DNA from: an uncultured Ruegeria sp.
GTDB taxonomy: Bacteria; Pseudomonadota; Alphaproteobacteria; Rhodobacterales; Rhodobacteraceae
Reading direction: 5' to 3'
DNA: 64,000 nt
NCBI RefSeq assembly: GCF_947497005.1
Contig: NZ_CANMFF010000001.1
Span: 310,001-374,000 of the forward strand
Shown: in pieces, positions 43,902 through 55,057 of the stretch
Position numbering within the stretch: position 1 is the first letter of the stretch
Layout of the letters: each line of letters opens with the position of its first letter
The notes under the pieces: generated by a model
What the model was told of the DNA's origin: nothing
The model's input: only the letters and a program-made list of their open reading frames with translations
The model's database searches: none
Made by a program: the position numbers and the translations under genes

Positions 43902-43930
43902 TTGAAAAGTGACCTAGGGTAATAGCTATG
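43902..43930 (+). promoter_or_regulatory. Candidate heat-shock-type promoter of the DUF1127 gene
   Basis: TTGAAA at 43902-43907 is a good -35 element of RpoH-type or vegetative promoters; the -10 could be around GGTAATAGCTATGT (43919-43932). In Rhodobacter the equivalent gene is controlled by RpoHI/RpoHII, so a stress promoter is expected here. The -10 is not clear, hence the low score. Confidence 0.3.
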
Positions 43931-43983
43931 TTTTACAGGCCTGTTTTTGACGTTGGGGAAAAAACTGAGCCAATCTATGCATT

Positions 43984-43998
43984 TGCTGCATAGCAGCA
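43984..43998. promoter_or_regulatory. TGCTGC-ATA-GCAGCA palindrome
   Basis: Perfect 6-base arms around ATA, containing CTGC-N3-GCAG. This matches the form reported for the polyhydroxyalkanoate regulator PhaR in Rhodobacter and Paracoccus. Further TGC-rich copies follow (GTGCAATCGCAGCATTTGC, 44017-44035). It lies about 100 bases before the DUF1127 start. Confidence 0.4.
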
Positions 43999-44099
43999 TT
44001 GATGACGTGACCCATTGTGCAATCGCAGCATTTGCTTATTTTCAGTCTCAAGCAAGGGCCGAGCGATATCGGCAAAGCAAAAAGATACGGATGATGAGC

Positions 44100-44324
44100 A
44101 TGGCAGTTGCAAGCACACAAACAGCACTGAAGAGCGCACCGGCGTTCGGGTTCGGCGCACTGGTAGAAAACGCAAAAATCCGGTTCGTGCGCCATCGCAT
44201 GTACCGCCAGACCGTCAGTGAACTGTCCGCTCTGTCCAATCGTGAACTGGCAGATCTTGGCCTGCACCGCTCCATGATCCGTCGCGTGGCCATGCAGGCC
44301 GCAAACGATCAAATCGCGCGATAA
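44100..44324 (+). CDS. DUF1127 small protein (CcaF1-like)
   Basis: From ATG 44100 the product has 74 residues. The C-terminal half is a DUF1127 domain: RFVRHRMYRQTVSELSALSNRELADLGLHRSMIRRVAMQ, an Arg-rich helical element. The start has ACGGA about eight bases upstream; ATG at 44091 and 44094 are alternatives, and the frame is open to 43947 but without family support. In Rhodobacter sphaeroides the counterpart CcaF1 is an RNA-binding protein co-transcribed with the CcsR small RNAs and affects their processing. The same layout follows here, which makes that role likely. Cytoplasmic. Confidence 0.88.
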   Translation: MAVASTQTALKSAPAFGFGALVENAKIRFVRHRMYRQTVSELSALSNRELADLGLHRSMIRRVAMQAANDQIAR

Positions 44325-44345
44325 GCGCGCAACACATACCGAGAT

Positions 44346-44414
44346 CAGACCCTTACTCCTCCCTTAGGGTCTGTAATTAGCGGCAACGTCTCTCCTCCTC
44401 CCTGACGTTGCCGC
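44346..44414 (+). ncRNA. Cuckoo (CcsR-like) small RNA unit A
   Basis: Two hairpins six bases apart. Hairpin 1: 8-bp stem CAGACCCT/AGGGTCTG (44346-44373) with CTCCTCCC in its loop. Hairpin 2: perfect 11-bp stem GCGGCAACGTC/GACGTTGCCGC (44380-44414) with CCTCCTCCC at 44394-44402 in a 13-base loop. The unit starts 21 bases behind the DUF1127 stop. Two CCUCCUCCC-loop hairpins per RNA is the defining form of CcsR ('conserved CCUCCUCCC motif stress-induced') RNAs. The exposed motif could pair with Shine-Dalgarno-like GGGAGG sites in mRNAs. Confidence 0.88.
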
Positions 44415-44449
44415 ACCTAATACCGGCCTCAACTCCGCCGGAAACTGAT

Positions 44450-44526
44450 ACATCGGGGCTCTCCTCCTCCCTGCCTTGATGTTGAAAGCGCGCGGCGACG
44501 TCTTCCTCCTCCCTGACGTCGCCGCG
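44450..44526 (+). ncRNA. Cuckoo (CcsR-like) small RNA unit B
   Basis: Hairpin 3: ACATCGGGGC (44450-44459) pairs with GCCTTGATGT (44473-44482) using two G-U pairs, loop motif CCTCCTCCC at 44463-44471. Hairpin 4: perfect 12-bp stem CGCGGCGACGTC/GACGTCGCCGCG (44491-44526) with the motif at 44505-44513. The spacer between hairpins is eight bases. The unit lies 35 bases after unit A, the same distance as from B to C. Hairpins 3 and 5 are near copies, so the units arose by duplication. Confidence 0.88.
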
Positions 44527-44561
44527 TCTTCCTCATTCCGGGTTCAAACCCGGGTTCGGAT

Positions 44562-44639
44562 ACATCGGGGCTCTCCTCCTCCCTGCTCTGATGTTGACAA
44601 GACGGCGGTTCCCTCCTCCCTGGGGACCGCCGTTTTTTG
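44562..44639 (+). ncRNA. Cuckoo (CcsR-like) small RNA unit C with terminator
   Basis: Hairpin 5: ACATCGGGGC (44562-44571) with GCTCTGATGT (44585-44594), motif at 44575-44583. Hairpin 6: ACGGCGGTTCCC/GGGGACCGCCGT (44602-44633, one G-U pair) with the motif at 44612-44620, followed by a run of T residues. The last hairpin thus doubles as the Rho-independent terminator of the whole DUF1127-small-RNA transcript. Confidence 0.9.
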
Positions 44640-44691
44640 TTTTGGGTCATTGGTGTAGGATGGCGTCCTGATTTCTGATCCGGAGGACGTT

Positions 44692-44982
44692 ATGGCAGCC
44701 TATTTCATCGCGCAGATTGATATCCACGACCCGGACGGGTATCAGGACTATCTTGCAGGCTTCATGCCGATCTTCGACCGCCACGGAGGCCGCTTGCTGA
44801 CGATCTCGTCCAAACCGGTCGAACGAATCGAAGGCAAATGGCCTGAAGGCGGGATTGTGTTGATGGAGTTTCCGGACCTTGCGGCGGCAAAAGCCTGGAA
44901 AGACGACCCCGATTACATCGAGCTGGCGAAGATCCGGCAAGCCACTGCCTCGACTAATCTGGTTCTAGTCGAAGGGATCTAA
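44692..44982 (+). CDS. DUF1330 domain protein
   Basis: Protein of 96 residues of the dimeric alpha/beta barrel kind: AAYFIAQIDIHDPDGYQDYLAGFMPIFDRHGGRLLTISSKPVERIEGKWPEG, then IVLMEFPDLAAAKAWKDDPDYIELAKIRQ. DUF1330 proteins are small cytoplasmic proteins without an established reaction. A CGGAGG six bases before the ATG is a strong ribosome-binding site. It follows the small-RNA terminator, so it should have its own promoter in the 50 bases before it. It converges with uvrD, four bases apart. Confidence 0.92.
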   Translation: MAAYFIAQIDIHDPDGYQDYLAGFMPIFDRHGGRLLTISSKPVERIEGKWPEGGIVLMEFPDLAAAKAWKDDPDYIELAKIRQATASTNLVLVEGI

Positions 44983-54874: not shown

Positions 54875-54949
54875 GCGGGCGTAGCTCAGGGGTAGAGCAT
54901 AACCTTGCCAAGGTTAGGGTCGGGCGTTCGAATCGCCTCGCCCGCTCCA
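54875..54949 (+). tRNA. tRNA-Gly (anticodon GCC), copy 1
   Basis: 75 bases including the encoded CCA. Acceptor stem GCGGGCG/CGCCCGC, D arm AGCTCAGGGGTAGAGC, anticodon arm AACCTTGCCAAGGTT with anticodon GCC, T arm with the standard GTTCGAATC. Reads GGC and GGT glycine codons. The cloverleaf is complete and identical to copy 2. Confidence 0.97.
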
Positions 54950-54982
54950 TTGAGAGGTCTTCGGACCACATAAGTATCTGAT

Positions 54983-55057
54983 GCGGGCGTAGCTCAGGGG
55001 TAGAGCATAACCTTGCCAAGGTTAGGGTCGGGCGTTCGAATCGCCTCGCCCGCTCCA
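54983..55057 (+). tRNA. tRNA-Gly (anticodon GCC), copy 2
   Basis: Identical in all 75 bases to the first copy 33 bases upstream, with encoded CCA. Probably transcribed together with it. The tandem pair suits high demand for GGC/GGT codons in a GC-rich genome. Confidence 0.97.

Follow-up and report, generated by a model that had tools for sequence, protein, structure and literature searches.

The window analysed here, 64,000 nt of a Ruegeria genome, holds beside mraZ what the evidence supports as a ccaF1-CcsR ("cuckoo", CIN1) locus, an operon of a kind that is itself already known. Two features of it add to that picture: a VtlR/LsrB-type box upstream of the promoter, which is a new point of analysis, and a third, motif-less hairpin in each linker of the RNA array, which may be another. 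Taken as a whole, we consider it probable that this copy of the operon is transcribed with the help of an RpoH-kind sigma factor and a LysR-type regulator (LTTR) of the VtlR/LsrB kind, that CcaF1 and RNase E process the transcript, and that the products act as anti-Shine-Dalgarno RNAs.

Table 1. Features of the ccaF1-CcsR locus and its surroundings, in window coordinates
Feature	Positions	Strand	Evidence
Operator-like element: dyad CTATGC-N7-GCATAG (43975-43993), overlapping TGCATAGCAGCATTG (43987-44001)	43975-44001	+	VtlR motif match
Core promoter, RpoHI/RpoHII-like: TTG (44015-44017), TAT (44037-44039)	44015-44042	+	spacing, consensus match
Short stem GCCGA/TCGGC in the putative 5' untranslated region	44058-44073	+	by eye; other stems in relatives
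DUF1127 gene, ccaF1 ortholog, 74 aa	44100-44324	+	PF06568; match in 54/54 genus genomes
Hairpin A1, loop CUCCUCCC	44346-44373	+	covariation-tested structure
Hairpin B1, loop CCUCCUCCC	44380-44414	+	motif count, covariation-tested structure
Linker hairpin C1, CCGGC/GCCGG, without anti-Shine-Dalgarno motif	44423-44441	+	linker folding
Hairpin A2, loop CCUCCUCCC	44450-44482	+	motif count, covariation-tested structure
Hairpin B2, loop CCUCCUCCC	44490-44527	+	motif count, covariation-tested structure
Linker hairpin C2, CCGGG/CCCGG, without motif	44538-44553	+	linker folding
Hairpin A3, loop CCUCCUCCC	44562-44594	+	motif count, covariation-tested structure
Hairpin B3, loop CCUCCUCCC, then T-run: terminator	44599-44636	+	motif count, covariation, terminator check
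DUF1330 gene	44692-44982	+	between RNA array and helicase gene

The gene ahead of the hairpins does encode a DUF1127 protein, as an earlier sequence-only reading of the window had said: in a protein family search it scores 53.2 bits against PF06568 (cut-off 23.3), and it adjoins the array on the same strand, with its stop at 44324 and the first hairpin beginning at 44346. That reading put the start at 43902, which is wrong for the gene; we set the gene start at 44100 because a frame read from the conserved ATG farther upstream runs into a shift or a stop ahead of the DUF1127 gene in 39 of 54 Ruegeria relatives. Every one of the 54 Ruegeria genomes searched has a DUF1127 protein match, and all 54 best loci show at least six CTCCTCC matches (overlaps counted) within 900 bases downstream of the gene. 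To the left of it, and divergent, lie what we take to be mraZ and further dcw genes, and to the right of the array, on the opposite strand, presumably a pcrA/uvrD-type helicase gene. The mraZ gene stands beside the locus in 53 of the 54 Ruegeria stretches fetched, the exception being L033, whose longer copy (L109) has it; the mraZ/dcw synteny reaches three genomes with the best scores for RF02791 (CcsR1). The proposed identity with the Rhodobacter CcaF1-CcsR system is supported by like gene order, an RpoH-like promoter sequence, a terminator, two-hairpin units and adjacency to mraZ/dcw. Of the 54 Ruegeria loci, some have the DUF1330 gene as a neighbour and others do not. Elsewhere in the window, a tandem pair of tRNA-Gly (gcc) genes, which score equally in Rfam, occupies 54875-55057.

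The region from 43975 to 44042, missed in the earlier reading, is a family-wide promoter block, and conservation in aligned Ruegeria upstream regions begins at about 43973. We surveyed L001-L084 and L116-L164 (133 loci, five of them dropped for want of a DUF1127 match), omitting L085-L115 as apparent copies of genus loci already counted. Of the resulting 128 loci, 126 contain both the upstream box and the promoter element, at a distance of 26 bases in 109 cases and of 25 bases in 16. The set is not a random family sample, since L055-L084 were picked by high CcsR1 score and L116-L164 by DUF1127 similarity. Behind the downstream element ATTGTGCANNNGCAGCA comes YATNTW, whose distance from the TTG is 22 or 23 bases in 101 of the 117 distinct loci of the family; in 10 of the 117, YATNTW is absent after the TTG. 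As far as sequence can tell, TTG and TAT at this near-fixed distance fit the RpoHI/RpoHII promoter consensus TTG/TAT (PMC10673084), and a search for a sigma-70-like site at the promoter found none. Transcription would accordingly be expected to start near 44050.

Ahead of this core promoter, the upstream element has the consensus nCnATGCAnTTGCTGCATAGCAGCATTG over 116 loci. The passages of PMC12595884 on the Brucella regulator give its binding motif as CAATGCAGCCATGCA, or TGCATGGCTGCATTG on the other strand, and the latter agrees with the nCnATGCAnTTGCTGCATAGCAGCATTG consensus at 13 of 15 positions; the window's own TGCATAGCAGCATTG likewise matches the motif, on the opposite strand, at 13/15. 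Across 118 distinct upstream regions, the VtlR 15-mer occurs with one mismatch in 16, two in 76, three in 20 and more in 6, hence within two mismatches in 92/118 and within three in 112/118, as compared to 2/590 and 17/590 dinucleotide shuffles and to 0/117 control regions 600-900 bases upstream (within three), although the motif was chosen after the conserved block had been seen, the PhaR site being the second published operator with which the block was compared. In the window, the box is the sole place within two mismatches of the motif, while at three mismatches there are five places against 3.66 expected, so that such matches are not rare. It counts against the VtlR reading that the published motif has T at base 9, where 112 of 116 loci carry A or G; this T is also part of the box GCAT-N3-TG-N3-T (PMC7486931).

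Relative to the putative start, the box spans about -63 to -49. LsrB, the counterpart of VtlR, activates the cuckoo-type RNA NfeR1 via a site at -72 to -57 (PMC10746234), and VtlR activates three DUF1127 genes as well as AbcR2 in Brucella, according to the passages of PMC12595884. The corresponding Rhodobacter passages name only RpoHI/RpoHII as control of the ccaF1 promoter (PMC10253847), and among the literature matches listed we found no paper that treats LsrB or VtlR together with CcsR. Judged from the box, the operon would be controlled by a LysR-type regulator. The box was not found at two other DUF1127 genes of the same genome (best 4 and 5 mismatches, 480 bases). Genome-wide, the second-best match to the ccaF1 upstream element, GCTGCATCGCAGCATTG with one mismatch, lies in the middle of L190 (G000:C4:318689-318705, minus strand).

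Our first idea for this element was an operator of the storage-polymer repressor PhaR, which would make the operon responsive to carbon storage. The element contains CTGC-ATA-GCAG, and the genome has a match with two mismatches upstream of what we take to be a phasin gene, whose neighbours include presumed phaC-like and phaR-like genes. PMC12542648 gives CTGCNNNGCAG as the PhaR site of R. sphaeroides. The exact phasin sites listed, however, all read CTGC-RNY-GCAG, whereas the third base of this spacer is A or G in 116/116 ccaF1 elements; the VtlR motif accounts for more conserved positions than the PhaR motif; and the phasin promoters of 30 of the 54 Ruegeria genomes show a different core. We therefore disfavour a PhaR operator and regard it as unlikely. 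These phasin loci (L209-L238) carry two tandem exact CTGC-RNY-GCAG sites upstream of the gene in 22 of 30 cases and one in 7, the tandem arrangement presumably being a PhaR operator pair. In six genomes (G005, G008, G012, G014, G041 and G049) there are two phasin genes whose scores are the same or nearly so. G049 has them on separate contigs, whereas in the other five genomes they share a contig and lie about 13-36 kb from each other; this reflects either recent duplication or an assembly effect.

A translated leader peptide that begins at 43977 and attenuates ccaF1, as at a Sinorhizobium DUF1127 gene, is more doubtful still. In 54/54 Ruegeria loci an ATG begins a frame that stays open for at least 29 codons, and upstream-ORF attenuation is described for S. 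meliloti in the relevant passages of PMC12218461. Yet variation in the frame is nearly equal by codon position (0.416, 0.388, 0.497), the frame appears to be shifted in L014 and its end is unconserved, and the block keeps a near-fixed, promoter-like spacing family-wide, all of which argues against an attenuator.

For the VtlR/LsrB-type box, a candidate regulator is at hand. In Brucella, vtlR is located beside trxB (passages of PMC12595884). Of 58 alphaproteobacterial genomes, 53 had a trxB match, and among the 30 best-scoring of these loci, 14 have an LTTR, recognized by sequence signature, next to trxB. A search profile built from five such trxB-linked LTTRs singles out one LTTR in the genome of the window (341 bits, the next reaching 180), located at L274:1501-2406 (G000:C3:160023-160898) and identical to one profile query at 51 of its first 60 residues. 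The same profile finds one gene each in 144 of 149 Rhodobacteraceae genomes. In the genome of the window, this LTTR is not adjacent to trxB; trxB itself has as neighbours what we take to be Lrp-like and adenylate-cyclase-like genes. Against the 25 NCBIfam models listed (of 56), the protein stays below every cut-off, and its provisional designation as VtlR/LsrB-like draws on trxB synteny in other genomes and on similarity, rather than on a named reference sequence. LsrB is stated to occur solely in Rhizobiales (PMC11975290, 2025). The Rhodobacteraceae hold either an LsrB ortholog that PMC11975290 did not sample, or a closely related regulator whose DNA-binding part is almost the same. On balance we lean toward a broader proposal: the Rhodobacteraceae would possess an unrecognised core LTTR of VtlR/LsrB type that has the ccaF1-cuckoo operon as its main conserved target. 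One ancient circuit, in which an LTTR switches on a DUF1127 protein and anti-Shine-Dalgarno sRNAs, would then be common to rhizobia, Brucella and marine roseobacters, joined in the Rhodobacteraceae with RpoH control as a two-input stress switch.

Downstream of the gene, the six hairpins that had been read there are confirmed, five with CCTCCTCCC and one with CTCCTCCC in the loop. All five copies of CCTCCTCCC in the window fall within 44394-44620 on the plus strand (0.63 expected; five reached in 0/100 shuffles). Genome-wide, the motif occurs 17 times, including the five at the locus, and the reversed control pattern 12 times, which is why the clustering is a signal and the total is not. The hairpin region folds with -143.9 kcal/mol (z -9.85, 0/100 shuffles), and the last hairpin, B3, which a T-run follows, is terminator-like. 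The grouping into three pairs holds as well; the spacings first given, 6-8 bases within pairs and exactly 35 between them, hinge on the chosen stem ends, and with our own stem limits the two hairpins of a pair stand 6, 7 and 4 bases apart, and successive pairs are separated by 35 and 34. The locus does have three units, but this is no special departure from four: 43 of the 54 Ruegeria genomes have three pairs and 11 have four, making three the usual number in the genus. At L055 (G103), 14 CUCCUCC hairpins follow a DUF1127 gene in series, several of the units being nearly identical; this array is a recent tandem amplification.

The stems themselves covary. We tested the named structure (67 pairs in eight helices) on the 43 three-unit Ruegeria loci, across which it is 99.6% paired. 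Stems without compensatory change would have spoken against the sequence-only reading, and here 19 of the 67 pairs have changed on both sides, as compared to a shuffled mean of 8.1 (sd 1.7; 0/500) and to 0-5 in slid controls, where the shuffles overstate independence because the species are related and the slid controls retain that relatedness. The loop motif stays constant while the stem sequences vary across relatives, and this, together with the trans action of related RNAs in Rhodobacter and Sinorhizobium, makes it least probable of all that the array, for all its strong stems and final terminator, is a long 3' UTR structure that stabilises the DUF1127 mRNA and yields no trans-acting RNAs.

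The linkers between the pairs are more than spacers: each holds a small hairpin (C1 and C2) that the earlier reading missed. We folded distinct linkers of 24-60 nt with 40 shuffles each. The 106 from the genus have a median fold z of -2.02, with 89% below -1 and 59/106 in the lowest twentieth of their shuffles; for 99 linkers from other family loci, some of them also Ruegeria, the median is -1.51, with 76% below -1 and 41/99 in the lowest twentieth. A CCGG-like start is found in 106/106 genus linkers and 72/99 of the others. Both linker stems are nearly invariant in the 43 Ruegeria loci, and covariation evidence is therefore absent for them; in other genera, stems of differing sequence are seen by eye at the linker position. 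The linker hairpin probably marks or spaces an RNase E cutting site, and it might also be bound by CcaF1. Present once per unit, it is a concrete candidate for what CcaF1 or RNase E recognises in the transcript.

As to family membership, the suggested run of cuckoo-RNA covariance models did match the region in a permissive scan, with best scores of 47.1 bits (E 3.4e-10) for RF02791 CcsR1 and 49.7 bits for RF02344 ar14, but these lie below the respective gathering scores of 65.3 and 58.8, and the Rfam scan at gathering level gave no match at the locus. By Rfam's own rule, then, the locus is not RF02791. Across the family, however, RF02791 finds matches at E <= 0.001 in 243 of 295 genomes (and one below the cut-off among 14 control genomes), whereas only 10 reach the cut-off and 285 stay below it. 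The gathering score thus misses most family members, and we read RF02791 as a narrow model rather than its score as a sign of non-membership.

The passages of PMC10253847 describe the Rhodobacter operon as co-transcribed, with a terminator and an RpoHI/RpoHII promoter for ccaF1; in passages of this and other sources, RNase E and CcaF1 take part in CcsR maturation, with effects on C1 metabolism and pyruvate dehydrogenase, and PMC3927594 assigns two motif-bearing stem-loops to each CcsR RNA in the part that describes them. By analogy, an RpoH-kind stress sigma factor, aided by the VtlR/LsrB-kind activator bound just upstream, would produce one transcript. RNase E with CcaF1 would cut it in the linkers, as known from Rhodobacter, into two-hairpin RNAs of about 80 nt, the third hairpin of each linker marking or spacing the cut. 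Through their C-rich loops, these RNAs would then pair with the purine-rich Shine-Dalgarno sequences of selected mRNAs and keep them from being translated, much as the loops of NfeR1 pair with mRNAs at the ribosome site and so silence them (PMC10746234). A search of the genome for GGGAGGAG-N3-10-ATG returned 24 sites, two of them inside the ccaF1 locus, and 18 precede frames of at least 100 codons. These 18 candidate targets include five solute-binding proteins, an acetate-CoA ligase, a PQQ alcohol dehydrogenase and molybdo-enzyme subunits. One of the 18, at a thiolase, was rejected, its ATG being internal to the gene and so no true start. Neither DUF1127 nor mraZ occurs in the main-text passages of the R. 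pomeroyi sRNA paper PMC4809877.

With the operon known, novelty would lie in its control. If true, a family-wide VtlR/LsrB-type site adds a metabolic or redox input to the operon, explains why DUF1127 genes recur with anti-Shine-Dalgarno RNAs, and gives the LTTR a defined core target. Among known systems, the closest is ccaF1-CcsR1-4 of Rhodobacter sphaeroides (RSP_6037; CIN1; RF02791), which shares the DUF1127 gene, the two-hairpin CCUCCUCCC units, the terminator, what by sequence looks like the RpoH-type promoter and, via the three RF02791-best genomes, nearby dcw genes; it has four units where the Ruegeria locus has three, and the Ruegeria stems have diverged (47.1 bits against the 65.3 cut-off). 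The NfeR1/alpha-r14 sRNA of Sinorhizobium (RF02344) resembles the locus in its redundant CCUCCUCCC loops and in that a LysR-type regulator, LsrB, has its site ahead of the promoter (PMC10746234), the box being the candidate counterpart in Ruegeria. Unlike the multi-unit 3' UTR of a DUF1127 gene behind an RpoH-like promoter, however, NfeR1 is a three-hairpin sRNA with a sigma-70 promoter. The VtlR regulon of Brucella and Agrobacterium, with its DUF1127 genes and AbcR sRNAs, has an operator motif that the Ruegeria box closely resembles (passages of PMC12595884 and PMC7486931), and the Brucella targets listed in that part of PMC12595884 include an sRNA as well as DUF1127 genes. In that regulon the two are targeted separately, whereas in Ruegeria they form one operon, and its box differs at base 9.
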